Assembly: GCF_030680935.1 (NCBI RefSeq)
Contig: NZ_JAUXUP010000042.1
Span: forward strand, 1 to 64,000
Direction of reading: 5' to 3'
Length of the DNA: 64,000 bases
Origin: Polaromonas sp.
GTDB taxonomy: Bacteria; Pseudomonadota; Gammaproteobacteria; Burkholderiales; Burkholderiaceae_C
This document shows positions 36,115 through 54,102 of this stretch, in pieces. The first letter of the stretch is position 1. The number at the start of each line of letters is the position of its first letter. The notes below the pieces were generated by a model. The model was not told where the DNA came from, did not search any database, and saw nothing but the letters and a program-made list of their open reading frames with translations. A program made the translations under genes and the position numbers.

Positions 36115-37221
36115 TCAGATCAATGCCCGGGTGTGGCGGGCGATCTGTTCATCTTCCTGTGAGGTCAGAACCAGGACTTCACAGCGCGATGCAGAATCGT
36201 TGATCGGATTGCTTGTGGAACGGTTCCGGGCGTCGTCCAGGCTGATGCCGATCCAGGACAAGCCGACGCAGATCGCAGCGCGAACGGTCGCGTCGTGCTC
36301 GCCAATGCCGCCGGTGAAGACAACCAGGTCGACACCGTCAAGCACGGCAATCATGGCGGCGATCTGCTTGCGCAAGGAATAGCAGAACATGTCGATCGCA
36401 AGTCGTGCATCAGCGTTTGTCGAGGCATCCTGATGGAGTCGCCGCATGTCGCTGTCCGTGCCAGAAATCCCCATCAGCCCGGACTGCCGGTTGACCAGAG
36501 CTTCCACCATTGCCGCGTCGTAGTTCTTTTCACGCATCAGGTAAACCAGAACGCCAGGGTCAAGATCGCCGCTGCGCGTCCCCATGACGACGCCACCGGC
36601 CGGCGTCAGGCCCATGCTGGTATCGATCGATCGGCCACTCTCTACAGCGGTGACGCTGGCACCGTTGCCGAGGTGGGCGACGATGACGCGCCTTGGCAGA
36701 TCGCTTCCCAGCTGGTGCACGATGGATTCGATTGAGAGGCCATGGAAGCCGTAGCGCTGGATGCCCTCGGATTGCAATGCCTTGGGAATCGGCAAGACGC
36801 GAGCGACGTCAGGCAATCCGGCGTGAAAGGTGGTGTCAAAGCATGCTGCCTGAGGAATCCCGGGGAAATTTTCCTGGGCGAAGCGAATCACAGACAGGGT
36901 CGAGGGCGTGTGCAGCGGCGCAAAGGCGATCGCAAGCTCCAGTTTGGCGAGGACCGAGTGGTCAATGAGGCAATGCTGACGCAGCGCCGGCCCGCCATGG
37001 ACGATTCGGTGTCCGATGGCGCCCGGTTTCGGCATTCCGGATTCACCAAGAATGGTCTTGATGCGAATGAGGGCGTCGAGCGGGGGAGTCGAACGCGTCT
37101 CGACGTCACCGGACAGCAGGGTGTCGGTCCTTGCTGCTTCGACACGGTACAAACCATACTTCAATGAGGAAGACCCGCTGTTCAGCGCCAGAACATGCAG
37201 GCCGGAGTCAGTGTCAGTCAT
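36115..37221 (-). CDS. ackA: Acetate kinase
   Basis: A 368-residue acetate kinase of the ASKHA fold: L-N-S-G-S-S-S-L-K-Y near residue 12, H-R-I-V-H-G-G near 71, F-D-T-T-F-H near 127, Y-G-F-H-G-L-S near 153, H-L-G-N-G-A-S near 184 and F-T-G-G-I-G-E near 307. It interconverts acetyl phosphate plus ADP with acetate plus ATP. The gene follows phosphoketolase by 10 bases, so acetyl phosphate made there can be turned directly into ATP. I chose ATG 37221 with AAGGG upstream; upstream extension has no family match. Confidence 0.92.
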   Translation of the reverse strand: MTDTDSGLHVLALNSGSSSLKYGLYRVEAARTDTLLSGDVETRSTPPLDALIRIKTILGESGMPKPGAIGHRIVHGGPALRQHCLIDHSVLAKLELAIAFAPLHTPSTLSVIRFAQENFPGIPQAACFDTTFHAGLPDVARVLPIPKALQSEGIQRYGFHGLSIESIVHQLGSDLPRRVIVAHLGNGASVTAVESGRSIDTSMGLTPAGGVVMGTRSGDLDPGVLVYLMREKNYDAAMVEALVNRQSGLMGISGTDSDMRRLHQDASTNADARLAIDMFCYSLRKQIAAMIAVLDGVDLVVFTGGIGEHDATVRAAICVGLSWIGISLDDARNRSTSNPINDSASRCEVLVLTSQEDEQIARHTRALI

Positions 37222-37231
37222 GTTGTTTCCC

Positions 37232-39595
37232 TTACGGGTTCCAGCGCCAGTTCTTGACCTCCGGCATGTCGTCGCCATGCTCGCCGATGTAGAGCCTGTG
37301 ACGCTGCATGGTCGTATCAAAGCGGGCGGTTTTCGCCTCAACCTGGTCTGCGAGCCTCGGGATACGCCGTATCGCGTCCAGTGCCAACTGATAGCGGTCC
37401 AGGTTGTTGAGCACGACCATGTCGAATGGCGTCGTGGTGGTGCCCTCTTCCCTGTAGCCGCGCACGTGAATGTTGTCGTGATTGCGCCGCCGGTAGGTCA
37501 GCTTGTGAATGATCGCAGGGTAACCGTGGAACGCGAACACTACCGGCTTGTCGGTCGTGAACAGGGCATCGAACTCGTGGTCTGTCAGGCCATGCGGGTG
37601 TTCTGACTGGGGCTGCAGCACCATCAGGTCCACGACATTGACGAAGCGGATGCGGATGTCAGGGACGTAAACACGCAGCAAGGTCACGGCGGCCAACGCC
37701 TCCAGTGTCGGAACGTCGCCGGCGCACGCCACAACGACATCAGGCTGCCCCGCATCGTTGCTCGCCCAGTCCCAGACGCCCACCCCCGCCGTGCAATGGC
37801 GCACCGCCGCATCCATGTCCAGCCATTGCGGCGCGGGCTGCTTGCCGGCGATGATCAGGTTGACGTAATTGCGGCTGCGCAAACAGTGTTCGGCCACCGA
37901 CAGCAGGGTGTTGGCATCGGGCGGCAGGTAAATGCGAACGACATCGGCTTTTTTGCTCGCCACATGGTCGATGAAGCCGGGGTCCTGATGCGAAAACCCG
38001 TTGTGGTCCTGCCGCCAGACATGCGAGGTAAGCAGGTAGTTGAGCGATGCGATCGGTTTGCGCCAGGGAATCTGGTTGCATACCTTCAGCCACTTGGCGT
38101 GCTGGTTGAACATCGAATCGATGATGTGGATGAAAGCCTCGTAGCACGAGAACAGGCCGTGGCGTCCGGTGAGCAGGTAGCCCTCGAGCCAGCCTTCGCA
38201 CAGGTGCTCGCTTAACACTTCCATCACCCGGCCGTTGGCGCTGAGATGGTTGTCGTCCGTTTGCACACCATCCAGCCACGCCTTGCCGGACACCTCGAAC
38301 ACCGCTTCCAGGCGGTTCGACGCGGTTTCGTCCGGGCCGAAGATGCGGAAGTTGGCCGCATCCAGGTTGAGCTTCATCACGTCGCGCAGGAACTTACCCA
38401 GGACGCGCGTTGCTTCCCCTTCCACGCCGCCGGGCTCGTGCACCGCCACGGCATAGTCCCGAAAGGCCGGCATCGCCAGCGGCTGCAACAAGCCCCCACC
38501 ATTGGCGTGCGGGTTGCAGCCCATGCGGCGCTGGCCTGTTGGCGCAAGCGCAGCTAAATCGTCACGAAATCGGCCAAGCTCATCGAACAGCTCCTCTGGG
38601 CGGTAACTCTTGAGCCAGTCTTCAAGCTGCTGCACATGCCCGGCGGTCTTGAACTCGGCGATCGGCACCTGGTGCGAGCGCCAGCTGCCTTCGACCGGTT
38701 TGCCATCGACGAGCTTTGGCCCGGTCCAACCCTTGGGTGTGCGCAGGACGATCATCGGCCAACGGGGCCGCGCAGGGGTTTGTGCTGCGTTCAGGGACCG
38801 CGCCTCGCGCTGGATGTGCTGGATCTGCGCCAGCACCGCATCCAGCGCGCCGGCCAGTGCCTGATGCACCAGCGCCGGGTCGTCGCCCTCGACGAAGAAG
38901 GGCTCGTGGCCGTAGCCGCGCATCAGGTCCGTCAGTTCCTCCCGGCTGATGCGCGCCAGCACCGTGGGGTTGGCGATCTTGAATCCGTTGAGGTGCAGGA
39001 TCGGCAGCACTGCGCCGTCGCGCGCGGGATTCAGGAATTTGTTGGAATGCCAGCTAGCGGCCAGCGCGCCGGTCTCCGCCTCGCCGTCACCGACGACGCA
39101 GGCGACGATGAGGTCGGGGTTGTCGAACGCCGCCCCGTAAGCGTGGGCCAACGAATAACCCAACTCGCCACCTTCATGGATCGAGCCCGGCACCTCGGGT
39201 GAAACGTGGCTGGGAATCCCTTGCGGCCAGGAAAACTGGCGGAACAGCCGCTCGAGCCCGTTGCGGTTGCGCTCGATGGCAGGATAGTGCTCGGTGTACG
39301 ACCCTTCCAGGTAGGTGTGCGCCACAATGCCCGGCCCACCATGCCCAGGACCTATGACATACATCATGTTCAGGTCATGCGCCTTGATCAGCCGGTTCAG
39401 GTGCACATAGATCAGGTTCAGCCCCGGCGTCGTGCCCCAATGTCCCAGCAAGCGGGGCTTGACATGGTCGAGCGTGAGCGGGGATTCAAGCAGGGGGTTT
39501 TTCTGCAGATAGATCTGGCCGACCGAAATGTAGTTGGCCGCGCGCCAGTAGGCGTGCATCTTGTGCAGCAGGTCGGGTGAGAGGGGATCAGGCAT
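37232..39595 (-). CDS. xfp: Xylulose-5-phosphate/fructose-6-phosphate phosphoketolase
   Basis: A 787-residue thiamine diphosphate enzyme of normal family length. Recognisable blocks are [10 protein letters not shown] near residue 52, G-P-G-H-G-G-P near 82, [16 protein letters not shown] near 133, the diphosphate-binding G-D-G-E-A-E-T-G near 169 and [13 protein letters not shown] near 533. It splits xylulose 5-phosphate (and perhaps fructose 6-phosphate) with phosphate into acetyl phosphate and glyceraldehyde 3-phosphate (or erythrose 4-phosphate). It is 10 bases upstream of ackA. Confidence 0.93.
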
Positions 39596-39623
39596 CAGGG
39601 CCTCCGTGATGGGATGTCAGGCT

Positions 39624-39782
39624 TCAGGAAATGGCGACGTCCACGATGGCCTGCGCCTCTTGCAGCATGCGCTGCAGATGCTCGTCAGGGTGGCGATCAA
39701 CGCGCGCGTGCTCAACCGTGTTGTCGCCCCCATCGGTCACACAGGCGAAGCCTGATCCCCTTGCATCAAGGGCCTCAGGCAT
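39624..39782 (-). CDS. 52-residue protein upstream of phosphoketolase
   Basis: The ATG at 39782 follows a strong AGGAG ribosome site at ideal spacing. The product is acidic and soluble (M-P-E-A-L-D-A-R-G-S-G-F-A at the start, H-P-D-E-H-L-Q-R-M-L-Q-E-A near the end). It ends 28 bases before the phosphoketolase start on the same strand. No family is recognised. It could be a small regulator of, or accessory to, the phosphoketolase; a longer in-frame start at 39902 lacks comparable support. Confidence 0.55.
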   Translation of the reverse strand: MPEALDARGSGFACVTDGGDNTVEHARVDRHPDEHLQRMLQEAQAIVDVAIS

Positions 39783-39889
39783 GGTGCTGCTCCTTCGCCG
39801 GGGTTGTCTCGCCGAGCTTGATGCGCTTGAGCAGAGCCCAATTGACAATGGCCGACCAGGAAGATGGCGCCACCGCATCAACAGCTTCA

Positions 39890-40327
39890 TCAGAGTTGCC
39901 AACGGAATATCCGGGGTGCGGACTCGCCCGGCCGAGCGATCTTGAGTTCAACCGCACTAGGCCGCGGCGCTGCAACGTCGAATGCCAGCACGCCTTCACG
40001 GTGGTGACCGGTGGGGCCTGCGCCCACCCAGCCCGTGGGCTTGAGGGTGCGCCCATCGTTGGTCGTCAGGGTGGCAATTTGAGTCAAATCGTCGCTCAGG
40101 TCGGCACTGTGGGTTTCAAGCACGATATTGAATTCCCAGCGGTTGCCCGATGACCCAATCCACTTCGGCGTGACTTTGACCGTCACCCCTCGATCACTTG
40201 ACGAGCGCGTGGCCGATGCTTCCGTGCTGGTTTGCGCCAGGGCCGACAAGGGCGCAACCACCCCGCCGAGCGTGGCCGCAAGAATCCAGCCGATTCTGAC
40301 TTTTTGGAAGTTCCGTACTAAAGACAT
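39890..40327 (-). CDS. Exported protein of unknown function
   Basis: A 145-residue protein with a clear signal peptide (I-L-A-A-T-L-G-G-V-V-A-P-L-S-A-L-A near residues 15-31). The mature part is predicted beta-rich (V-T-V-K-V-T-P-K-W-I, W-E-F-N-I-V-L-E-T-H) and ends A-P-R-I-F-R-W-Q-L. The start has AAAGGAG upstream. It lies between the SHOCT gene and the 52-residue gene in the same minus-strand series. No family is assigned; a periplasmic binding or structural role is possible. Confidence 0.65.
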   Translation of the reverse strand: MSLVRNFQKVRIGWILAATLGGVVAPLSALAQTSTEASATRSSSDRGVTVKVTPKWIGSSGNRWEFNIVLETHSADLSDDLTQIATLTTNDGRTLKPTGWVGAGPTGHHREGVLAFDVAAPRPSAVELKIARPGESAPRIFRWQL

Positions 40328-40409
40328 GACTTTCTCCTTTGCAGTGGTGGGTAAATTCGGTAACCAGGCGGTAGCACGCGAGCCCCGCTATTCAAGACAC
40401 GCGTGCAGA

Positions 40410-40523
40410 CTACTTTGCTTGCAGTTCGTCGCGTTTCCGGAGGAACTCTTCGCGGTCGATTTTTCCGCTGGCATAAACTTTTTCGAGTATTTCAAGCGCA
40501 CTCTGGTCCGTGCCCGGCTTCAT
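40410..40523 (-). CDS. 37-residue SHOCT-domain protein
   Basis: The ATG overlaps the TGA of the PRPP-synthetase-like gene by four bases. The product is [17 protein letters not shown] followed by A-S-G-K-I-D-R-E-E-F and L-R-K-R-D-E-L-Q-A-K. This is a complete SHOCT motif (A-L-E-I-L-x3-Y-A-x-G-x-I-x3-E-F), a short helical oligomerisation element. It is too short for usual gene callers. Translational coupling and an intact motif argue that it is expressed; the function is unknown. Confidence 0.72.
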   Translation of the reverse strand: MKPGTDQSALEILEKVYASGKIDREEFLRKRDELQAK

Positions 40524-41407
40524 GGCAGCAACTCGCGCACGCTGGATGCAATGGCGGAGGCCAGTCCGATGCGATTGGACGGGTGAGAAATCGTGTCGCA
40601 GCTCACTATGTCAGCCGCACCGGCTGCATGCAGATCCTCAAAAGCCGTTTGTGCGAACACAGCATGCACGGCCACGCACACGGGTGCGGCCAGACCGATA
40701 CGGCGTAGATGCCCAACGGTTTCGATCATGGTCCGGGCGGTCGAAACGATGTCGTCCACCAGCACTGGCGTGTGCGAGCGCCAGCGATCAACCTCAGGGA
40801 CGGACACTTCGACATCACGATCGCCTCGCCGGGTCTTTGCCAATATGATGAAAGGCACTTCCGCGCGCTGCGCCACATCCCTTACCCACTGGGCGCTTTC
40901 CTCGTCCGGCCCAATCAAAAGCGGTTGGCTTACATGCAGCCGTACCCAGCTTGCGACGCCCTCTGCCGCATGTGTCACCCGCGAAGGAATACTGTAAACC
41001 TGCGATAAATCCGCAATGCGGTGCAAATGAGGATCTACAGTGACCAACCAGTCCACATGGCGTGAGATCCACGCCGCTACATGCTGCGCGCTGATCGTCT
41101 CACCCGCGTGAAACTGCCGATCCTGACGCATGTAGGCCAGGTATGGAGCCACCAAGCCGACCGATACCGCCCCAGCTTCGCGGATGGCGCATGCCAGAAG
41201 CAGGAGCGGCACCAGTTTGTCATCCGGCCTATCCAGTGTGCACACAATGATCGCGTGCCTTCCCTCGACGGCTGTCTCGACTCGCACATGGGACTCTCCA
41301 TCAGGAAACCGCCGCACCGTGGCCGCGCCGCGCTCCAGGCCGAGTTCGGCCGCCAGCTCATCGGTGAGGCGTTCATTGCCGGGCATGGCGATGGCCACCG
41401 GTTTCAT
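40520..41407 (-). CDS. Ribose-phosphate pyrophosphokinase-like protein
   Basis: A 295-residue protein of the PRPP synthetase family: R-R-F-P-D-G-E near residue 32 (ATP-binding), [12 protein letters not shown] near 90, V-D-P-H-L-H near 122 and the PRPP loop [13 protein letters not shown] near 215. The second half is closer to archaeal-type enzymes than to the housekeeping bacterial Prs. The usual reaction is ribose 5-phosphate plus ATP to PRPP plus AMP; a different sugar phosphate cannot be excluded. It overlaps the phosphorylase gene by four bases. Confidence 0.82.
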
Positions 41408-42915
41408 GCTGGCACCTTATCGGCCAGGGTAATGACAGGGTGAGTCTCAAGATATCGCATGGCGTAGGTCAGCTCGCCGGCCGCCTCTGCATGCAGGGTG
41501 AACAGCGGCATGGCACGGCGTACGTGGTCACCCAGCTTCACGTGAAGATCAATCCCCGCCGTACTCGCGCTGGGCGCCCCCGCAAGTTTGGCGACGCGCG
41601 AGAGGCGCCGGTTGTCGATGTGGGAGACGTAGCCGTCTTGCTCCGCCATCACCACATCACGTAAAGGGGCCACGCCCGGCTCCCGCAATCCACCCTGAGC
41701 CTCGCAGATCGCCTGAAACTTCGTCCATGCCGCGCCGCTGTCGAGCAGTCGGCCCGCATCCGACATGCCAGCACCGGGCATGCTATGCCCACAGAACTCC
41801 AGAAGTTCACCGGACAGCACCAGAGACCGCATGCGAAGATCCACCGGGGCCGAAGCAGCACCGCGTAACACCGCCAGTACGTCATGCGCTTCAAGCGCGG
41901 GGCCGACACCTCGCCCCACCGGCTGTGAGCCACGCGTGCGCAGGATGCGCAGTTGCAAGTCATTGGCGGCCGCCACCTGTTCCAGCAGCACCTCCAGGCG
42001 ATCAGCGTCATGGTCGCTTCGTACCTTGGCGGTCGACCCGACCGGGATATCGATCAGAACATGCGTCGCCCCTGCGGCAATCTTTTTTGAAAGTATCGAT
42101 GCGACGAGCTGTGAGTCGCTGTCAAGATCGAGCGGACGGGCGACCCGAATCAGCAGGTCATCAGCCGGACTCAAGGTTAGCGCGCCACCCCAGACAAAGC
42201 AGCCACCCTCGCGCTCGACGACGCGCCGCATCGCCGGTACATCGAGCTCGACGCGGGTCAGCGTCTCCATCACATCGGCCGTGCCGGCAGGCGAGGTGAT
42301 GGCGCGTGATGAGGTTTTGGGCATGGTCAGCCCCGCAGCCACCGCAATGGCCACCACGATAGGCGTCGTACGGTTGCCCGGCAGGCCGCCAACGCAATGC
42401 TTGTCGGCAATGGGTACCCGTCCCCAGTCAATGCGATCCCCCACGTCGACCATCGCCCGCGTCAGGTCAATGGTTTCCTGTACATCCATTCGTCCACCGG
42501 CGCAGGCGGTGAGGAAGGCTGCGATGTGCAAGTCCGAGTAACGGCCCGCAGCGACATCGCCCAGGATGGCGTTGAATTGAGACCCCTCAAGCCGGTGTCC
42601 GTAAATTTTGGCACGCATCGCGCTTAGCGAGTCAAGCGGTGGCGCGTGCATCACCCACACGGTATCGCCTGGCGCAGCGCCCAGCGCTCGCCAGGCGCTG
42701 GTTGACAGGCTGACCTCCTCCTGCGCCAGCAGTTCAAACCCCACAACGTTGATCTTTGCAATGATCTGACGGTCTCCCAGGGTGACTTCGACCCGTGTCT
42801 GCGCCTCAAAGCCTTCTGCCCTGCAGACGTGGCAGTCGCGCCGCATGTAGATCACAAATTCCTGAAGCGTGTCTATCCCCAGCGGTCGCAAGCGAAGCCC
42901 GGTCACCTCGATCAC
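41404..42915 (-). CDS. Thymidine/AMP phosphorylase family protein
   Basis: A 503-residue protein of the long-form nucleoside/nucleotide phosphorylase family that includes archaeal AMP phosphorylase. An N-terminal domain of about 90 residues precedes the catalytic part, with [14 protein letters not shown] near residue 171 and [15 protein letters not shown] near residue 200. These conserve the phosphate and ribose sites. Archaeal members release the base from NMP to make ribose 1,5-bisphosphate; bacterial members are usually labelled putative thymidine phosphorylase. The GTG at 42915 overlaps the RNase stop by four bases and follows a GGTGGAG site. Confidence 0.85.
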
Positions 42916-44270
42916 AAAATCTCCACCGCCTGTCCCAGCCGAGGCACGCTTGCAGGCCATTCGAGCTCACGCTCGATGCGTTGCCGCAGTGCGTCCGCCG
43001 GTCCTGGTTCGCCATGGTTGAGGTAGATGCCCTTGGGCGCCTTGGGCGCTGTTTTTAGCCACTGCACGATCTGCTCGGCATCGGCATGGGCCGACATGCC
43101 GGGCAGGGAGACAACCTCTGCATTGATCGCCACGTCCTCACCGTGAATGCGGATGCTGCTTTCACCGGCGACGATCCTGCCGCCACGTGTACCGCCGGCC
43201 TGAAACCCCGCAAACACGATGGTGTTGCGCGAATGGGGCGCCAGCGCTTTCAGATGATGCAGCACCCTCCCCCCGGTGGCCATACCACTGGCCGACACGA
43301 TGACGGCCGGCTGGCGCCGGGCCACCAGAGCGCGCGACTCATCGGGCGTTCGAACCATCGTGGCGACCCGGGCCATCCCGATGCATTCTTCTATCGACAG
43401 CCTGTGCTCCGCACGATGCCGGTGATAGATGTCGGTCATGTCGATGGCCATCGGGCTGTTCAAATAGATGGGCAGATCGGGAATTTCCGAGCGCTGCTTC
43501 AAGCGGTAAATCGCATGCAGCAGCGACTGCGCCCGTCCAACGGCGAACGCAGGAATCACCACGATGCCGCCGCGCGCCGCTGTACGCTGAATCACCTGGC
43601 CCAGCAGCAGTTCGGCATTCGACGCTTCGTGAAGACGGTCACCGTAAGTCGATTCGGCCACGATGTAGTCGGCCCGTTCAATCGGCGCAGGCGCGCGCAT
43701 GATGAGATCGTCGGGGCGCCCCAGATCACCCGAAAACAACACCGTGGTGTCCCCCGCCGTCAACTCAACCGAGCTGGCGCCCAGAATGTGGCCCGCAGGC
43801 CGCAAGCGCAACTGCATGCCCGCGATGCTGTCAGAGCGCTCCTCAAAAGGCAGAGGCCTGAGCTGGCGCAGGGCCCGTTTGGCATCCTCTTCGGTGTAAA
43901 GCGGCAGTGGCGGGTGGTGCCTGGAGCGCTCGCGGCGGCCCGCATACTCCGCGTCTTCTTCCTGAAGCCGCCCGCTGTCTGGCAGCAAAACTCCGCAAAC
44001 CTCGATCGTGGACGGCGTGGCGAACACCGGGCCGCGAAATCCCCGCTTGACCAACAGTGGCAAGGCCCCCGAATGGTCCAGGTGGGCGTGCGTCAGAACG
44101 ACGGCATCGAGTTGCTTCGGATCAAAAGGGAAGTCTTCCCAGTTCATCGAGCGCAAGTTCTTGTAACCCTGAAACAGGCCGCAATCGACGAGCAACTGCT
44201 TGCCTTCCTGCGTGACCAGAGTTTTTGACCCGGTGACGGTGCCGGCGGCACCCAGAAATGCGAGTTTCAT
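42912..44270 (-). CDS. Beta-CASP metallo-beta-lactamase RNase
   Basis: A 452-residue protein of the CPSF/Ysh1-type RNA-processing nucleases. The metal site H-A-H-L-D-H-S-G lies near residue 59, followed by the beta-CASP insert and a C-terminal RMMBL part with S-A-H-A-D near residue 388. Relatives act as endonucleases or 5'-exonucleases on RNA. It begins 34 bases after the P-type ATPase gene and overlaps the phosphorylase gene. Its position suggests it supplies nucleotides to that enzyme, though an RNA-maturation role is equally consistent with the family. ATG 44270 has AAAGGTG upstream. Confidence 0.85.
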
Positions 44271-44304: not shown

Positions 44305-46689
44305 TCATGCCGATGCTCCCGATGCCGCTGGTGTGGCTGCAGCAGATGCGTTTTCGATTCGCGCAAGCTTGATGCCCGCCAGCTTGGTGCGCTTTAGCAT
44401 CAGAGCGTTGAGCGCCACCAACGCGGAACTGCCCGACATCGACAGCGCCGCAATCTCCGGGGAAAGAGTGAAGGGATAGAAAATGCCCGCGGCCACCGGA
44501 AATGCAATGACGTTGTAGGCCACGGCCCACCACAGGTTTTCGTGCATCTTGCGCAGCGTGGCACGCGACAGCTCGATGGCACCGACGACGTGGTAGGGGT
44601 CGCTTTTCATCAGCACCACCTGAGCACTCTCCATGGCCACGTCGGTACCTGCGCCGATGGCAAAGCCCACATCCGCCTGGGTCAACGCGGGCGCATCGTT
44701 GATGCCGTCGCCGACCATGCCCACCTTGTTTCCCTGATCCTGCAGCTCCTTGATCTTTTCCGCTTTCTGACCGGGCAGGACTTCAGCCAGCACTATGTCT
44801 ATGCCAAGCTCCTTGCCGATACGATCGGCCGTTGCCTGGTTGTCGCCAGTCATCATCGCGACTTTGACGCCGCGCTCTTGCAGCTTGGCGATTGTTGCCT
44901 TGGACGTCGGCCGCACCGCGTCTGCAATGGCGATAAGGCCGATAAGCTTGCCAGCGCGGGCCACATGCACGGCAGTGCGTCCGCCACTTTCCAACCGCAT
45001 AGCCTCAGACGACAGCGCATCGAGGCTGATATTTTCTGACTGCATCAGTTTGCGGTTGCCGAGCAAGACGTTATCTGCTCCAATGCTGGCCCGGGCACCC
45101 TGCCCATCAATGTTGGCGAAGTCCGTGGCAATCTCCACGGCGGCAATACCCACCCGCTTGAGAATCGCATGCGCCAGAGGATGCTCGGAAAACTTTTCGA
45201 CAGCCGCAGCGGTAGCGAGCAACTGTGCTTCGCTGATGCCTGGGGCCGTCACCATCTCGACCACATCCGGCTGCCCCAGTGTGAGCGTGCCGGTCTTGTC
45301 GAAGACGATGACAGTCAGCTTGGTGGCGTTTTCCAGCGCGGAAGCATTTTTGAACAATATGCCGTTCATCGCACCCAAGCCGGTTCCCACCATGATGGCC
45401 ATGGGGGTTGCCAGCCCGAGCGCGTCGGGGCAGGCGATCACAAATACTGTGATGGTGAGTGTCAGGGCAAACAGCAAGGTCTCCCCCAGTACCCAGAACC
45501 ACACACTGAAAGTCAACAAACCGATGACGATAGCGGCCAATACCAGCCACTGCGACGCACGATCCGCCAGCAGCTGCCCTGGCGCCTTGGAGTTCTGCGC
45601 CTCCTGAACCAGCTTGACGATTTGCGCCAGGGCCGTGTCGGCCCCCACCTTGGTCGCCTTGTAGCGAAAGCTTCCGCTTTTGTTGATGGTGGCGCCTATC
45701 ACCGGGTCACCGGTGACTTTTTTGACCGGCATCGATTCGCCTGTCAGCATGGACTCGTCCACTTGCGAGCTGCCTTCAGTGATTTCGCCATCGACTGGAA
45801 TCTTGTCCCCTGGTTTGATGACGACGATCTCTCCGGCCAGCACCTCCGAGGTGGGCACCTTGATCTCTGCGCCATCGCGCACCACCGTGGCCAGGGGCGG
45901 GGCCAGGTCCATCAACGCGCGGATCGCGTCCGAGGCGCCCGCACGGGCCCGCATTTCAAGCCAGTGGCCCAGAAGAATGAACACCAGAAGCACAGCCGAT
46001 GCTTCGTAAAACACTTCGCCCTCGTAAAAGAAGGTGGCACCGACGCTGAAGATGTAGCCCGTGCCGACCGAGAGCACGACCAGCGTCGCCATGTTGGCGA
46101 CTTTGTTCCGGGCCGACCGCCAGGCGGCGACCAGAAACGGCCAACCCGGATAGGCGATAGCGCCGGTGGCGGCGATAAACAGAAAGAGCTTGCGGTCCAG
46201 TCCGAAGGGCGCAGGAAAATCGCCAAACATCTCACCCATCGGGGAATACAGGAAGACTGGAATCGCAAATACCAGGGCCACCAGAAAGCGGTTGCGCATA
46301 TCGCGCGCCATGTCCTGCATGGACATACCCGGGGCATGGCCCATGTCGTGCATCATGTCGGCTTTGTCTTGCGATGCCGAGCCGCCCGCGGTTGCATGGG
46401 CGCGATGTTCCCCGTGGCCTGCGTGACTCTCCGTGCCGGCTGTATGCCCGGCGGTGTTACAGACATGTGTGGGCAGGAGTTCACCGCGGCAGTGGTAGCC
46501 GCAGTCGTTCACGCGTTTGCGGATGGCTTCCAGCGTGACTTTGGTTTCGTCATAGTGCACGGTGGCGCTGCCAGCAACGTAGTTCACGTCCGCATGGTGA
46601 ACGCCAGCCAGCGTTCCGAGCTGGCGCTCGACACCAACCGCGCTCAGGGTAGAGATCAACTCGGCGACTTCGATGGTGCTGGTTTTCAA
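44305..46689 (-). CDS. P1B-type copper/heavy-metal ATPase with CPD motif
   Basis: A 794-residue P-type ATPase with an N-terminal HMA-like fold (residues 3-66) lacking CxxC, a His-rich linker and a Met/His-rich segment, eight membrane helices, phosphatase motif T-G-E-S near 315, the transmembrane metal motif C-P-D ([12 protein letters not shown]) near 416 where CopA has C-P-C, phosphorylation motif D-K-T-G-T near 462 and G-D-G-I-N-D-A-P near 667. The CPD and absent CxxC mark a divergent subgroup. Copper export is likely from neighbours and the His-rich linker. The start TTG at 46689 has GGAAGGA upstream. Confidence 0.86.
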
Positions 46690-46741
46690 GACGGTTCCTT
46701 CCAAGTGGTATCAGCGGGCTGAACAGTGAGGCCAATGGTTT

Positions 46742-47392
46742 TCAGGCGACTGAAGCTGCTTGTTTGAACGAAGGCAAAAAACGAGGCGTGCGCGCTGCGT
46801 AGGCTTCAAACTCGGCGCCAAACTGCTCGCGCATCTGCTTTTCCTCGGTGATGGCAAGCCGTCCATACATCAGCAGCAGGACCGGGAACATCAACAAGGT
46901 AAGCAGCGTCGGCCATTGCAGCAAAAAGCCCAGCAGGATGAGCACGAAGGCCACGTATTGCGGATGGCGAATGCGCGCATAGGCCCCGCTCGTGGCCAGG
47001 ATGCCCTTGCGCTGCGCGTGGTACAGCACGTTCCAGGCGCTGGACAACAGATAGAAGCCGAAGCCGAGGAAGGCATAACTGGCGATGTGCAGCGGACTGA
47101 AGTGCGGATCTCCCTTCTCGCCAAGAAGCGTTGACCACAAGTGACCGGAGTTGTGGGACAGCAGATCGAGGCCCGGAAATTTGGTCTGCAGCCAGCCCGA
47201 CATCAGGTAAATGCTTAGCGGAAAGCCATACATTTCGACGAACAGCGCGACGACAAAGCCCGCAAACGCTCCGAAGGTACGCCAGTCGCGCGCGGTCTGC
47301 GGCTTGAAGAAGCTGAAGGCAAACATCAGAAAGATCGCTGAATTGAGGACAACGAGCGTCCAGAGCCCGTACGCAGAGGTGTCATTTGTCAT
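46742..47392 (-). CDS. Isoprenylcysteine carboxyl methyltransferase-like membrane protein
   Basis: A 216-residue membrane protein with about five helices. The C-terminal half has the phospholipid/isoprenylcysteine methyltransferase pattern: G-I-L-A-T-S-G-A-Y-A-R-I-R-H-P-Q-Y near residue 131, then E-E-K-Q-M-R-E-Q-F-G-A-E-F-E-A-Y near 183. R-H-P-x-Y and E-E are the S-adenosylmethionine-contact residues of the family. The substrate in bacteria is unknown. It overlaps the DUF2933 gene by four bases and precedes the copper ATPase. Confidence 0.82.
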   Translation of the reverse strand: MTNDTSAYGLWTLVVLNSAIFLMFAFSFFKPQTARDWRTFGAFAGFVVALFVEMYGFPLSIYLMSGWLQTKFPGLDLLSHNSGHLWSTLLGEKGDPHFSPLHIASYAFLGFGFYLLSSAWNVLYHAQRKGILATSGAYARIRHPQYVAFVLILLGFLLQWPTLLTLLMFPVLLLMYGRLAITEEKQMREQFGAEFEAYAARTPRFLPSFKQAASVA

Positions 47393-47673
47393 GGTTGTTC
47401 TCTGGTGGGGGATTTCGGCGGACCCACGGGAGGGGTCGCATCCGGTTTGTTGCCGCCGTGGTGTCCGCCATGGCCACCATGCATGAACACATGCATCAGC
47501 GGGCAGGCGAGCAGCAACAGGAACGGCAGCGCTCCAAAGAAATGGGCGCGGTGCTCGCTCAATAAAAAATAGGCGGCAATGGCGCCAAACACCAGCAAAC
47601 CCCATGCGTATCGGGAGCGCCAGAATGGCTGTGGGGCGACGTGTCCGGGCTCGGACGTGTGGTCGTTGTTCAT
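47389..47673 (-). CDS. DUF2933 small membrane protein
   Basis: A 94-residue protein with two hydrophobic helices (about residues 23-40 and 46-62), then C-P-L-M-H-V-F-M-H-G-G-H-G-G-H-H-G-G near residues 58-75. The C-P-L-M-H-x-F-M-H-G-G-H motif is the DUF2933 hallmark, and the His/Met-rich tail should bind copper. The family recurs in heavy-metal loci. It overlaps the methyltransferase-like gene by four bases. Confidence 0.85.
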   Translation of the reverse strand: MNNDHTSEPGHVAPQPFWRSRYAWGLLVFGAIAAYFLLSEHRAHFFGALPFLLLLACPLMHVFMHGGHGGHHGGNKPDATPPVGPPKSPTREQP

Positions 47674-47719
47674 TTGAATCTCCAGAGGTTGGGCAGCCTG
47701 AAAACCAGCGTGCCAACTC

Positions 47720-49357
47720 TCACGCCTGCACGCGAAAGTTAATCATCATTCCGGCGTCTTCATGCTCCAGGTTGTGACAATGAAACACATAGGTCTGGTC
47801 GCCGGGGTAGTCGTGTGCAAAGTCGATCGCCACCCGCACCGTTTCGCCGGGCCAGACCAGCACGGTGTCTTTCCAGCCGAGGTCACTCACAGTGCGGCCC
47901 TGGCCGAAGCGCGCCGTGGACGCGACCTGTGGCGGGCTGTTCAGCCGTTCAAGCACCTGAAACGAAAAACCGTGGATGTGCATCGGGTGCGGCATGCCCA
48001 GCGCCGGGTTGCTGATGCTCCATATTTCCACTGCGCCGCGTTTGACATCAAACGCAATCTCATCCATTTTGAAGGTGCGTCCGTTGATCAGAAAACGCAT
48101 TTGACCCATGGACAGTTCGATCTTGCGCTGTGCGGCACCTTCGGTCCGGATCGGCTTGACCTGAGAAAGCGTGGCTGGCAAGTTGGCGACGACGCGTTCG
48201 CCCGCCGTCACCGACAGCTTCAACACGTTGAACTCCGCGCCCAGCGGCAGCCGTGACGAACTCATGGCGGCCATCATCTGCCCCATGCCCATGCCGCCCA
48301 TGCCGCCAGCAGGTCCTTCGTTTTCCATCGCATCGAACGCCAGGCTTTTGAGAAAAATGTCTTCCCCAGGCTGTGCCTGACCCGCGTCGAACAACACATC
48401 AAGTCGCTCACCCGGTGCGAGAAAGGCTTCGCTCACCGTTTCCGGCAGCTCGATCAGGCCGCCGTCGGTGCCGATGACGGTGAAGTTCAGCGCTGTCTTG
48501 CCCTTGACGAAGGCGAGCCGGTAGATGCGCGCGTTCGAGCCGTTGAGCAGCCGCAGGCGGTAGCTGCGCGGGGTGACGGCCTGCACCGCATTGGGCGTCA
48601 GGTTGGCGAGCACGATGTCGCCGAGCCAGCCCATCATCGCCTCATGGACACTGGGCTTGTACAACAGCTTGCCCTGCGCGTCGAACTGCTTGTCCTGGAT
48701 GACCAGGGGCAAGTCGGTGACGCCGAGTTGCAAGTCAAGTGCTTTGCTGACTCGGCGCTGGTCGTCGTCGTCCACCAGGAAGAAACTCGCAAGGCCGTTG
48801 TAAGCTTGCTCGGCGGTCAGCTCGTGCGCGTGGGTGTGGTACCAGTAGGTGCCGCCGCGGTTGCGCACCGTGAAGTCGTAGTCGTAACGCCCGCCGGGGC
48901 CGATGGTGCTGGCCGGATGGCCGTCCATGGCGGCGGGCGTGTGCAGGCCGTGCCAGTGGATGATGGTCGGCTCCTTAAGCGCGTTGTCCAGGCTGGCCGT
49001 GAAGCGCGCGCCGCTCTCGATGCGCAGGATGGGGTTCTGGTAGGCCTTGCCCGCCTGTTCCGTCTGGTACAGCAGGAACGGTGATTCGCGACCTGGCAGA
49101 AGAGGAAAGCTGGCCGCAGCGGCGCGGATTTTCAGGGGCCCGGCGACATCAAGCACGCCAAATGGCCCGCTGCCGACGGGGATGAACAGCTTTTGCTGGA
49201 AATTCTCAGCGGCCACCGGATCAAACGGGTAGTGGCGAAACGGCCCGCCTGCCAGCGCGGTGGAGCGCCCCGATCCGTAATACATCCAGGCGGCGCCGCC
49301 GGCAGCGGCCACGGCGGCTACGCCGGCAAACTGAAACAGCTGTCTTCTTTGCAACAT
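47720..49357 (-). CDS. Multicopper oxidase (CueO-like)
   Basis: A 545-residue oxidase with an N-terminal export signal (R-R-Q-L-F-Q-F-A-G-V-A-A-V). All copper motifs are intact: H-W-H-G near residue 135, W-Y-H-T-H-A-H near 175, H-P-M-H-I-H-G near 469 and H-C-H-N-L-E-H-E-D-A-G-M near 526. A Met/Gly-rich stretch (G-G-M-G-G-M-G-M-G-Q-M-M near 355) resembles the cuprous-binding insert of CueO. It probably oxidises periplasmic Cu(I). It is a different subfamily from the 477-residue oxidase at 24542. Confidence 0.9.
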   Translation of the reverse strand: MLQRRQLFQFAGVAAVAAAGGAAWMYYGSGRSTALAGGPFRHYPFDPVAAENFQQKLFIPVGSGPFGVLDVAGPLKIRAAAASFPLLPGRESPFLLYQTEQAGKAYQNPILRIESGARFTASLDNALKEPTIIHWHGLHTPAAMDGHPASTIGPGGRYDYDFTVRNRGGTYWYHTHAHELTAEQAYNGLASFFLVDDDDQRRVSKALDLQLGVTDLPLVIQDKQFDAQGKLLYKPSVHEAMMGWLGDIVLANLTPNAVQAVTPRSYRLRLLNGSNARIYRLAFVKGKTALNFTVIGTDGGLIELPETVSEAFLAPGERLDVLFDAGQAQPGEDIFLKSLAFDAMENEGPAGGMGGMGMGQMMAAMSSSRLPLGAEFNVLKLSVTAGERVVANLPATLSQVKPIRTEGAAQRKIELSMGQMRFLINGRTFKMDEIAFDVKRGAVEIWSISNPALGMPHPMHIHGFSFQVLERLNSPPQVASTARFGQGRTVSDLGWKDTVLVWPGETVRVAIDFAHDYPGDQTYVFHCHNLEHEDAGMMINFRVQA

Positions 49358-49977: not shown

Positions 49978-50418
49978 CTAGAGCGCCAGTCGTGAGTAAC
50001 GGAGCCGGATAGGCCGCTCGGAGGCCAGCGGTTGCATCCGATCCAGCCGGACCAGCGCTGGAACCACAGGTGTTGCTGCGGTCCAGAGGATGGAAACAAG
50101 GGACATTGGCCCAGGGTCTGCCTGCGCAGTCGTCAAATCCTGCCGGTGCGGAGATTTCGCAACATCCTCACACGCCTTCTGGCACGGGGCTAGGGAGCTA
50201 TCCGCGTCATCGTCATGGTGGGCCACGGCTCCGGCATGGCCGGCCGATACAACTGGCGCCGCTGCTGCTTCAGAGCCAACAGCCGCCAGATGCCCATGGG
50301 TCCCGCGCACTTCCAGCAAACAGGCATTGGCGACACCGGAAGCCAATGCAAATACCCACAGCAACAACACCAGAAATGCGGTGTGGCGTTTGGCACAGGT
50401 ACTGGAAAGAAGTTTCAT
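49978..50418 (-). CDS. Exported cysteine/histidine-containing protein of unknown function
   Basis: A 146-residue protein with a signal peptide (F-L-V-L-L-L-W-V-F-A-L-A-S-G near residue 15). The mature start A-C-L-L-E-V-R-G-T-H-G-H and the block S-S-L-A-P-C-Q-K-A-C-E-D-V-A-K-S near residue 74 recall small periplasmic proteins of copper operons. Another conserved-looking part is A-D-P-G-P-M-S-L-V near residue 98. It diverges from the exported gene at 50648. No function is assigned. Confidence 0.62.
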   Translation of the reverse strand: MKLLSSTCAKRHTAFLVLLLWVFALASGVANACLLEVRGTHGHLAAVGSEAAAAPVVSAGHAGAVAHHDDDADSSLAPCQKACEDVAKSPHRQDLTTAQADPGPMSLVSILWTAATPVVPALVRLDRMQPLASERPIRLRYSRLAL

Positions 50419-51124: not shown

Positions 51125-52462
51125 ATGTCTGTTTTTTCCACTACTTGTCGGGCGCGTCTGATTCGGAGTCTGCTCGCGGCCACCTTGCTGGCTCCTGCCA
51201 CGGGGTCGCTCCGGGCCACCGAACCCTTGTCTTTGCAGGAGGCGCAAAAACTTGCTGCCGCCCGCTCCGGGCAATTGCTTGCGCAGAACGCCTCCTCAAG
51301 AGCAGCACGCGAGATGGCGGTGTCGGCCGGCCAGTTGCCGGACCCGGTCCTCAAGCTCGGCATTGACAACCTGCCTGCCTCCGGCCCCGACCGGCTGAGT
51401 CTGGGCCGCGACTTCATGACCATGCGCCGCATCGGGCTGATGCAGGAACTGCCGCGCGCTGAAAAACGCCAACTCAGGGCTGAGCGTTTTGAGCGTGACG
51501 CCGAACGCGCTCTGGCACAAGGACAAGTGGCGCTGGCTGGCCTTCAGCAAGGCACGGCGCTGGCCTGGCTGGAGCGTTACTACGCGCAAGCCATGCGCGC
51601 GCTGCTGCAGCAACAGATGGAGGAAACGCGGCTGCAAGAGCAAAGCGCCGACATCGCCTTTCGCGAGGGGCGGGGTGCCCAGGCCGACGTGTTTGCGGCG
51701 CGCGCGGCGCAAATTGAGCTCGATGACCGCCTGAGCCAGATCGACCGTCAGGCCAGAGGCGCCAACCTGATGCTTGTGCGCTGGATTGGTGCGGACGCAA
51801 ACCGCCCCCTGTCGGGCGCGCCGGAGTGGAAAACCCTGAAGGGCAACAACCTCAACAACCCTGACGCCACCTTTTCCGGCGAAGAGCTCAGGCAGCACCC
51901 CAAACTGGCCGTGTCTGCGGCTGTGCTGGAGGCGGCGCAAACAGAGGCCAGGCTGGCCCAGGCCAGCACGAAGTCGGACTGGACCGTGGAAGCCGCCTAC
52001 CAGCAACGCGGGCCAGCCTATTCCAACATGGTGTCGATTGGCGTTTCCATCCCCCTGCAGTGGGACCCCAAAAACCGTCAGCACCGCGATATTGCCGCCA
52101 AGCTGGCCGCCGTGGACGAGGCCCGCGCCAACGACGAGGAAACACGCCGTGCCTACGAGGCCGAGGTACGCAGCCTGATCAATGATTGGCAAAACGGCAA
52201 GGAACGTATTGCGCGTTACACCGGCCAGATGATTCCCGTGGCCGGGCAACGCTCGGCGGCGGCGCTGACGGCTTACCGCATTGGTAAAGGCGATCTGGCC
52301 AGCGTGCTGGCGGCGCGGCGCGACGAGATCAGCACGCGCATTCAGACCTTGAGCCTTGAGCTGGAAACCGCGCGGCTGTGGGCGCAACTGAATTACCTGA
52401 AACCCGACAACAGCATCGCGCCCGCCGCGACCGCCACCACATTCTTCAAAGGCCAGCCATGA
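51125..52462 (+). CDS. cusC: TolC-family outer membrane protein (CusC-like)
   Basis: A 445-residue outer membrane channel with a signal peptide but no lipobox. TolC-type repeats include L-S-L-Q-E-A-Q-K-L-A-A-A-R near residue 36, the coiled-coil Q-L-P-D-P-V-L-K-L-G near 73 and a second repeat with V-S-I-G-V-S-I-P-L-Q-W near 304. The ATG at 51125 has GGAGG upstream. It overlaps CusB by four bases, so the trio forms one operon. Note the other TolC-type gene at 23097. Confidence 0.85.
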   Translation: MSVFSTTCRARLIRSLLAATLLAPATGSLRATEPLSLQEAQKLAAARSGQLLAQNASSRAAREMAVSAGQLPDPVLKLGIDNLPASGPDRLSLGRDFMTMRRIGLMQELPRAEKRQLRAERFERDAERALAQGQVALAGLQQGTALAWLERYYAQAMRALLQQQMEETRLQEQSADIAFREGRGAQADVFAARAAQIELDDRLSQIDRQARGANLMLVRWIGADANRPLSGAPEWKTLKGNNLNNPDATFSGEELRQHPKLAVSAAVLEAAQTEARLAQASTKSDWTVEAAYQQRGPAYSNMVSIGVSIPLQWDPKNRQHRDIAAKLAAVDEARANDEETRRAYEAEVRSLINDWQNGKERIARYTGQMIPVAGQRSAAALTAYRIGKGDLASVLAARRDEISTRIQTLSLELETARLWAQLNYLKPDNSIAPAATATTFFKGQP

Positions 52463-54102
52463 TCACCCAGAAAAAACTTGTCGCGGCGCTGCTGGCCACA
52501 GGCCTGATCGCCCTGCTCGGAGCGGGCGCCTATGGCCTGTACACCCTGGGCATGCAGCGTGGCATGCAGGCCGCAGAAACAAGCACAACTGCCGCCCCAG
52601 GCGCTGCCGCAGAACCGGGAAGCGCAGCATTGCCGCAGGGCATCGCGGAAGGTGAAGACGCGACGCGGCGGCACATCAGCGCCGGCATCAAGGCGGGTGA
52701 TACCGACCCGGCCAACGGCCAGCGCGTGCTGTACTACCACGACCCCATGGTGCCGGGCAACAAGTTCGACAAACCGGCCAAGTCGCCCTTCATGGACATG
52801 ATGCTGGTGCCGGTCTACGCCGGCGGCGACACCGACCAGGGCAAGGTGACTGTCAGCCCGCGTACCCAGCAAAACCTGGGCGTGCGCACAGCGCCGGTGA
52901 CCGAGGGCACGCTGTCGCCCGAGGTGGCGGCCGTCGGCAGCATCGCCTTCAATGAGCGCGACCAGGTCATCGTCCAGGCCAGGGCGGCGGGCTATGTGGA
53001 GCGTCTGCATGTGCGGGCCACGCTGGACAGCGTTGTGCAGGGCCAGCCACTGGCTGAACTGTATGTGCCGGAGTGGGTGGCAGCGCAGGAAGAGTACGTT
53101 GCCGTCAGCCGCATGCAGGGTCCCAACCTGGCAGGTCTGGTGGACGGCGCGCGCCAGCGCATGCGCCAGGCCGGCATGAGCGAAACACAAATTGCTGCGG
53201 TGCAGGCCAGTGGCAAGCCAAGCGCGCGCAGCACGCTGGTGGCACCGATAAGCGGTGTCGTCACCGAGCTGGCCGCACGGGAAGGCATGACGGTGATGCC
53301 CGGCGCGACTCTGTTCCGGATCAACGGCTTGTCTACCGTCTGGGCCAACGCGGAGGTGCCGGAAAGCCAGGCGGCGGCCTTGCGCCCCGGCGCCAGGGTG
53401 CAGGCCAGAAGCCCGGCGGTGCCGGGCATGACGTTTAGCGGCAAGGTCCAGGCCATCCTGCCGGAAGTCAACCCCGGCACACGCACCATCAAGGCCAGGC
53501 TGGAGCTGGCCAACCCCGGAGCGCGCCTGGTGCCCGGCATGTTTGTGCAGATGCAGCTGATGGATAGCCGGGTTGGCAAGGTGCTGCTGATTCCGACCGA
53601 GGCGGTGATCCAGACCGGCAAACGCAGCGTGGTGTTGCTCGCCGAAAAGGAGGGCCGCTTCCGGCCGGTGGAAGTCGAGATCGGCATCGAAAGCGGCGGC
53701 CAGACCGAAATCACCAAGGGGCTGCAAGCGGGCCAGCAGGTGGTGGTGTCATCGCAATTCCTGATCGACTCGGAAGCCAGCCTCAAGGGCGTGGAGGCCC
53801 GGCTCAACGACCCGGGCGCAGGCGCCGCGGCCAGCGCCGCACCGAGGCATCTGGGTGAAGCCAAAGTTGATGCCGTGGACGGGAGTGCGGTGACACTCAC
53901 CCACGGGCCAATCGCCTCGCTGAAGTGGGGCGCCATGACCATGGACTTCAAGCTGCCCGCCACCGGTCTGCCGCGCAATGTGCGTGCTGGCGATGCGGTG
54001 ACCTTTGAGTTCTACATGAACGCCGAGGGCCTGCCGCAACTGACCGGCATCACGCCGATGACCTCGGCAACGGCGCCAAAATCCCTGGGCAACAAGCCAT
54101 GA
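52459..54102 (+). CDS. cusB: RND efflux membrane-fusion protein (CusB-like) with C-terminal CusF domain
   Basis: A 547-residue periplasmic adaptor. After an N-terminal membrane helix, a metal-binding segment reads Y-Y-H-D-P-M-V-P-G, then D-M-M-L-V-P-V-Y near residue 115. The lipoyl, barrel and membrane-proximal parts follow ([11 protein letters not shown] near 200, W-A-N-A-E-V near 294). The last 75 residues resemble a CusF domain: [20 protein letters not shown]. Fusing the metallochaperone to the adaptor is uncommon relative to the E. coli arrangement, where CusF is separate. Start overlap with CusC supports coupled translation. Confidence 0.87.

Follow-up and report, generated by a model that had tools for sequence, protein, structure and literature searches.

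What could bring a ribonuclease (RNase), a long-form phosphorylase and a phosphoribosyl pyrophosphate (PRPP)-synthetase-like protein together with a phosphoketolase and an acetate kinase in one series of genes? The question is raised by the minus strand at 36115..44270 of contig NZ_JAUXUP010000042.1 from Polaromonas sp., of which we analyzed positions 1 to 64,000 (this whole stretch of 64,000 nucleotides is hereafter called the window), and for which a first-pass annotation had proposed a pathway from RNA to ATP. We suggest that the series is an accessory energy module for low oxygen or respiratory stress that would convert RNA to acetate and ATP, a reading that is plausible and evenly poised between being right and wrong. 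Its observed base consists of the identities of the genes, their tight packing, the recurrence of the triad formed by the RNase, phosphorylase and PRPP-synthetase-like genes, a recurrent link to phosphoketolase-family genes, and matches to RpiA, Rpe and PhnN in the same genome; flux through the whole chain is what we infer from it.

In the proposed pathway, failing respiration would lead the RNase to cut RNA, the presumed source, and the phosphorylase would split nucleoside monophosphates (NMPs), its presumed substrates, with phosphate into a base and ribose 1,5-bisphosphate (R15P). By way of a putative R15P step the ribose would reach ribose 5-phosphate (R5P), which the housekeeping enzymes RpiA and Rpe would carry on to xylulose 5-phosphate; the phosphoketolase would cleave this into acetyl phosphate and glyceraldehyde 3-phosphate, and the acetate kinase would use acetyl phosphate to phosphorylate ADP, giving ATP and acetate.

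The eight minus-strand genes called in the first pass were all recovered with Pfam, NCBIfam and the sequence itself (Table 1), as were the three exact four-base overlaps (GTGA at 42912-42915, ATGA at 41404-41407 and ATGA at 40520-40523); downstream of the SHOCT-like gene the intergenic gaps are 82, 107, 28 and 10 bases. The RNase scores above cut-off for the Pfam domains Beta-Casp (118 bits), RMMBL (57.9) and Lactamase_B, its top-scoring solved relative is Ribonuclease TTHA0252 (E 2.6e-73), and no RNase model of NCBIfam was matched above cut-off; by its metallo-beta-lactamase (MBL), beta-CASP and RMMBL domains and its metal motif, the product is a predicted beta-CASP ribonuclease. The phosphoketolase has all three Xfp Pfam domains (PF09364, PF03894, PF09363) and homologs of known structure (8io8, 3ahc, 3ai7), and it and the acetate kinase are the single copies of their kind found in the genome. 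The small genes fared less evenly: their open reading frames (ORFs) are present and the exported protein has its apparent signal peptide, while the SHOCT match falls below cut-off and has a counterpart in one of 186 related loci (L149; tblastn, E 1e-3). The 145- and 52-residue ORFs have no family match and gave no tblastn match at that threshold in any of the 186, and the 52-residue ORF is therefore doubtful. The single minus-strand series stands as described, and it extends further upstream into genes for a P-type ATPase, a methyltransferase and a multicopper oxidase.

Table 1. Features of the gene series, the FNR/FixK-type boxes and the neighboring genes in the window (aa, amino acids).
Feature	Position	Strand	Basis or remark
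Beta-CASP/RMMBL metallo-RNase (MBL fold), 452 aa	42912..44270	minus	Pfam domains, LTHAHLDH motif
Long-form nucleoside/nucleotide phosphorylase, 503 aa, GTG start	41404..42915	minus	overlaps RNase stop by 4 bases
PRPP-synthetase-like protein, 295 aa, ATGA overlap	40520..41407	minus	PRK07199, 415.3 bits (cut-off 322)
SHOCT-like protein, 37 aa, ATGA overlap	40410..40523	minus	PF09851, 25.5 bits, slightly below Pfam cut-off 27
145-aa protein, apparent signal peptide (judged by eye)	39890..40327	minus	no family match (Pfam, NCBIfam)
52-aa ORF, doubtful gene	39624..39782	minus	no family match (Pfam, NCBIfam)
Canonical phosphoketolase Xfp, 787 aa	37232..39595	minus	NF003619, 1451.2 bits (cut-off 962)
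Acetate kinase, 368 aa	36115..37221	minus	10 bases after Xfp; PF00871, 325.2 bits; TIGR00016, 323 (cut-off 293.4)
Exact FNR/FixK-type box TTGATCTTTGTCAA	50471..50484		52 bases upstream of minus-strand ORF starting at 50418
Exact FNR/FixK-type box TTGATCCATGTCAA	36062..36075		just past acetate kinase stop, ahead of next minus-strand ORF
Heavy-metal (copper-type) P-type ATPase, TTG start as listed (provisional)	44305..46704	minus	TIGR01511, 598.1 bits (cut-off 397)
ICMT/PEMT-type methyltransferase (listed ORF, start provisional)	46742..47716	minus	Pfam PEMT/ICMT
Multicopper oxidase	47720..49357	minus	Pfam Cu-oxidase, Cu-oxidase_2, Cu-oxidase_3

The linkage of the phosphorylase and its PRPP-synthetase-like partner to phosphoketolase, on which the first-pass annotation had staked its pathway in advance, recurs in other genomes. 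The phosphorylase is above cut-off in 67 of 200 genomes of the window's family and in 34 of 299 genomes of a phylum sample. Apart from the window, 105 places were listed (70 above cut-off in the family and 35 at E <= 1e-100 outside it), of which 100 were fetched, leaving out G038 from the family as well as G208, G242, G305 and G430; loci from a scan of genome contigs and six plasmid loci (L034-L039) hand-picked from 116 matching records are included in the counts, and two loci fetched later (L225, which has no annotation, and L226) stand outside them. The resulting 187 loci, 186 plus the window, form 157 clusters at 90% identity. Neighbors were counted by tblastn, clustering of called ORFs having been dropped for contamination by shadow ORFs in GC-rich DNA; many of the relatives' contigs are short, and counts refer to the stretch read around each locus. 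One starred branch of the tree splits the clusters into a core type (59) and an accessory type (98) that includes the window. A PRPP synthetase (PRS) gene lies within 3 kb in 56 core-type clusters and in 76 of the accessory type, an RNase gene in 6 and 62, respectively, and the full triad is seen in 48 of the accessory type; acetate kinase is near none of the core type and within 10 kb in 12 of the 98. Without the window, 21 of the 97 clusters of the accessory type have an Xfp-family gene nearby, versus 1 of 59 of the core type (Fisher p 1.4e-4 for 22/98 against 1/59 with the window included, a guide only, the clusters not being independent), and 18 of those 21 have it on the same strand.

On the FastTree phosphorylase tree the Xfp link requires at least 17 changes for 23 linked rows, gains and losses being indistinguishable, and the linked genes are therefore not one block inherited unchanged. 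True Xfp is found in six of the 22 linked accessory-type clusters (the window, L136, L208, L145, L149 and L217) and in core-type L109. Gene order is xfp-phosphorylase-PRS-RNase in L136 and L208; in two metagenome-assembled genomes (MAGs; L145, L149) phosphorylase, ackA and xfp follow directly in series, and in L217 xfp is near the phosphorylase but on the opposite strand. In L136, L145, L149, L160, L186, L191 and L208 the phosphorylase has xfp, ackA or an Xfp-like gene as its neighbor, the aligned stretches being 12-150 bases apart.

As for the phosphorylase itself, it scores well above the cut-offs of the long-form models TIGR02645 (602.8 versus 434.6 bits, covering 1-490 of 493) and PRK04350 (666.9 versus 434). 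Its best solved relative is 4ga5 (314.8 bits), deposited as a putative thymidine phosphorylase, which we take to be the AMP phosphorylase of Thermococcus kodakarensis. According to the available portion of PMC8376864, that enzyme takes every natural NMP as a substrate and was formerly annotated, wrongly, as a thymidine phosphorylase. Two motifs of 4ga5, GG.PGN(K/R)T and PKTSSRAIT, are near-invariant across 156 aligned bacterial sequences including the window's, and differ from the motifs of the displayed thymidine phosphorylase chain (2wk5); NMP phosphorolysis is thus a likely activity.

The path from R15P to xylulose 5-phosphate is the remaining gap in the proposed route. As the first pass had supposed, the route would do without a RuBisCO: neither RuBisCO nor R15P isomerase has a match in the genome (estimated 100% complete, 82 contigs), and the RuBisCO-based archaeal pathway was rejected on these grounds. 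Of the two ways across that had been offered, housekeeping pentose phosphate enzymes and an unusual PRPP-synthetase-like enzyme, the former is in place as far as Rpe and RpiA are concerned, while the R15P step is left unfilled. A PhnN match barely above cut-off (159.7 versus 156) suggests what we rate as the likeliest chemistry: PhnN would convert R15P and ATP to PRPP and ADP, and the PRPP-synthetase-like enzyme would then run backward, from PRPP and AMP to R5P and ATP, a direction that would be favored at high AMP and low ATP. Together, the two steps would join R15P to R5P via known reactions only.

A bolder alternative is that the PRPP-synthetase-like enzyme would act directly on R15P. The protein keeps the FPDGE, RQDR, H and K.R loop elements, whose roles with ATP and in catalysis we assume, and it carries R225 in the ribose-phosphate loop (DDIVSTART), where elsewhere a Gly precedes the last Thr. 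This Gly is present in the genome's other, housekeeping-type PRS on contig C47 and in all three solved chains displayed, presumably archaeal. Among the 137 nearest PRS matches beside phosphorylases (6 unparsed), it is kept in only 4 of 131 (core type 4/54, accessory type 0/77), and Arg or His takes its place in 104 of 131; this exchange is the most specific clue in the sequences to an unusual activity. We consider it unlikely, if worth stating, that the phosphorylase-linked protein is an R15P phosphotransferase (R15P + ADP/AMP to R5P + ATP/ADP) with the Arg/His loop as its mark, which would complete a mobile route from RNA to ATP in anoxia that is free of RuBisCO and phosphatases and would retain the energy of phosphorolysis.

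When would such a module be used? The window holds two exact FNR-type boxes against 0.15 expected, and as many were seen in 1 of 100 shuffles; the ORF starting at 50418, behind one of them, is separated from the next minus-strand gene by 620 bases. In the relatives, exact matches were compared with 59 permuted palindromes as controls: of the 22 linked accessory-type loci, 10 hold 23 sites between them (controls: mean 0.92, maximum 10), with 10 of the 23 in the single locus L217; unlinked accessory-type loci have 47 sites in 23 of 76 (mean 3.93, maximum 25), and core-type loci 17 sites in 10 of 59 (mean 1.36, maximum 15). Bradyrhizobium diazoefficiens has counterparts, by annotation, of the window's five families. 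Within the portion of PMC6515984 available, Table 2 gives microoxic induction of 15.4-, 7.7- and 5.1-fold for bll3115 (MBL), bll3116 (PRPP) and bll3117 (phosphorylase), taken here as transcript, with log2 values of 2.9, 4.4 and 2.1, taken as protein, and of 8.2-fold (log2 4.3) for the phosphoketolase bll2518. In a fixK2 mutant, the decrease is 6.6-fold for bll3117, 30.6-fold for bll3115, 10.0-fold for bll2518 and 10.2-fold for bll2517 (acetate/propionate kinase); putative FixK2 boxes precede both operons, bll3117-3116-3115 and bll2518-2517, with bll3116 lying within the predicted operon but having no row of its own (PMC9104804 Table 2). Both halves are represented among the genes that decrease in this mutant, which supports the linkage proposed in the first pass, and the window's own copy may likewise be controlled by low oxygen. 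The same table also has entries for an oleate hydratase and for ICMT-family and DUF2933 genes, and genes of these three kinds adjoin relatives of the window series as well.

Several observations weigh against the module and should be set beside this evidence. The genome-contig scan was queried with accessory-type sequences and the best 80 of 569 were kept, so that the sample is biased. No Xfp-family gene is in the stretch read for 76 of the 98 accessory-type and 58 of the 59 core-type clusters, and therefore the phosphorylase/PRPP pair probably has another role too. Among the linked accessory-type clusters, 16 of 22 have only a divergent Xfp-like gene, and L145 and L149 show no PRS or RNase match in the stretch read. 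The phosphorylase falls below the cut-off of the AMP phosphorylase equivalog TIGR03327 (437.8 versus 535 bits). The idea that FNR boxes set linked loci apart is weakened, core-type loci being enriched too, and Table 2 of PMC6515984, as far as available, carries no direct FixK2 target mark for the B. diazoefficiens genes and has no soybean bacteroid value for them. The RNA-to-ATP pathway of the first pass accordingly stands as to linkage, and is held back by the TIGR03327 score, the divergence of 16 of the 21 linked genes and the R15P gap.

The main rival to the module is that the series combines two independent stress functions on a common island and under a common regulator, namely nucleotide salvage or RNA turnover on the one side and acetate-forming ATP supply by Xfp and AckA from hexose or pentose phosphates on the other, with no metabolite passing between them. 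The many clusters without an Xfp-family gene fit this explanation, as do the separate operons of the two halves in B. diazoefficiens and the breadth of its FixK2 regulon, which includes chaperones, stress proteins and transporters (PMC9104804 Table 2); the window series, too, includes metal genes, which have no metabolite in common with either half. The seven loci in which the phosphorylase closely adjoins xfp, ackA or an Xfp-like gene, and the repeated changes of the link on the tree, speak against it, and we regard it as possible though somewhat doubtful. Quite unlikely, in our view, is that the phosphorylase is a thymidine/pyrimidine nucleoside phosphorylase and the series a salvage route for (deoxy)nucleosides yielding (deoxy)ribose 1-phosphate. 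The missed TIGR03327 cut-off and the label "thymidine phosphorylase family protein" that such phosphorylases bear in public plasmid records would agree with it, but the four thymidine/pyrimidine nucleoside phosphorylase models reach only 121.3-184.1 bits, all below cut-off, versus 666.9 and 602.8 for the long-form models, and the motifs match those of 4ga5, presumably of the AMP phosphorylase type, and not those of 2wk5. Of the first-pass name, AMP/thymidine phosphorylase, the long-form family (TIGR02645/PRK04350) is what holds.

The divergent Xfp-like proteins may be illustrated by Sulfitobacter dubius, one of the 16 clusters, where such a gene accompanies the phosphorylase. One compared protein has 23% identity to the window Xfp and a PF03894 score of 130.6 bits, and three have lengths of 806-826 aa (L226 10415-12895, L036 14415-16895, L035 20497-22917). 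Several Xfp His/Glu motifs, among which we assume the catalytic residues, are retained, and Ile replaces the His of GSIHEGGE (by eye). The annotation "xylulose 5-phosphate 3-epimerase" was considered as the missing epimerase step and rejected, the protein being a divergent phosphoketolase homolog. A shared open frame on the S. dubius plasmid suggested an RNase-phosphorylase fusion; this was likewise rejected, since the reading and a two-piece match point to a frame-shifted RNase gene (L036 10597-11988), the adjoining phosphorylase, PRS and Xfp-like genes being open. The S. faviae plasmid (L226) also speaks against a fusion: RNase, phosphorylase and PRS are separate genes with four-base overlaps each, followed by the Xfp-like gene after 18 bases. 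Should the module be real, the divergent phosphoketolase family, known here only from annotation, would become a clear target.

Metal genes adjoin the series. The P-type ATPase gene lies 34 bases upstream of the RNase and continues the same strand; the ICMT-type methyltransferase has tblastn matches in 29 of the 186 related loci (E 1e-3). Beside the series, on the plus strand at 51125-54102, are an outer-membrane efflux protein and a CusB-like protein with a C-terminal CusF domain, after which comes a 1057-aa ORF. The triad recurs in Proteobacteria and Bacteroidota, and some copies are on plasmids with copper genes. The association of these genes is best explained by a low-oxygen and copper setting, which the first-pass annotation missed.

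Other cargo was seen around the relatives. The island in L035 (1-26273) carries PPK2, a P-type ATPase, MFS, LemA/TPM, the RNase, phosphorylase and PRS, DUF6629, type II GAPDH and the Xfp-like gene; near-identical cargo is present in L154, L155, L156, L159, L161 and L163, the hosts of this type being Acidovorax, Hydrogenophaga, Pseudomonas, Pigmentiphaga, Achromobacter and two Burkholderiales MAGs. The Variovorax WDL1 plasmid (L034 28876-34885) has a trehalase-gluconokinase fusion with rpe, gnd and transaldolase, beginning about 6.5 kb from the triad; the same plasmid also carries a phosphoketolase at a distance of about 52 kb.

If the module is real, normally respiring bacteria would, on loss of oxygen or respiration, draw ATP from their own RNA, and archaeal-type nucleotide phosphorolysis would be coupled to phosphoketolase in place of RuBisCO. 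It would also give a function to the recurring "thymidine phosphorylase / PRPP synthetase / MBL" triad, which is found in a low-oxygen regulon and on metal-gene plasmids, and this function would be testable with a handful of purified proteins.

How does the series compare with known systems? In archaea, AMP phosphorylase converts NMP to base and R15P as the first step of the NMP shunt (available portions of PMC9700705 and PMC8376864). The window shares with this pentose bisphosphate pathway a long-form phosphorylase relative and the proposed first step; unlike it, the window genome has no RuBisCO or R15P isomerase match, its phosphorylase is below the AMP phosphorylase cut-off, and phosphoketolase and acetate kinase stand in series instead. 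The non-carboxylating pentose bisphosphate pathway of halophilic archaea resembles the proposal in taking nucleoside ribose through R15P without RuBisCO, and it uses R15P isomerase, a HAD hydrolase and a FucA homolog (PMC9700705, as far as available); the isomerase was not found in the window genome, and the other two were not sought. B. diazoefficiens has the same five families by annotation in two separate operons, whereas the window has one continuous series, and neither PMC9104804 Table 2 nor the portion of PMC6515984 text seen proposes a pathway for these genes. The low-oxygen-activated (lxa) locus of Burkholderia cenocepacia is, by description, a similar low-oxygen cluster with the metallo-beta-lactamase-superfamily protein BCAM0300 and the phosphate acetyl/butyryltransferase BCAM0298; it differs in that phosphorylase, phosphoketolase, pyrophosphokinase and acetate kinase go unmentioned in the available main text of PMC6127331. 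Lactobacillus sakei, too, ferments nucleoside ribose through the phosphoketolase pathway, starting from nucleosides and using nucleoside hydrolases or phosphorylases and phosphopentomutase (PMC3146418, in the portion available), whereas in the window a single series combines genes for an RNase, a long-form phosphorylase and a PRPP-synthetase-like protein. Among the papers searched, none mentions AMP phosphorylase together with phosphoketolase. It is plausible that the series represents a new variant, in which archaeal-type nucleotide phosphorolysis is joined to a phosphoketolase pathway of the L. sakei kind.

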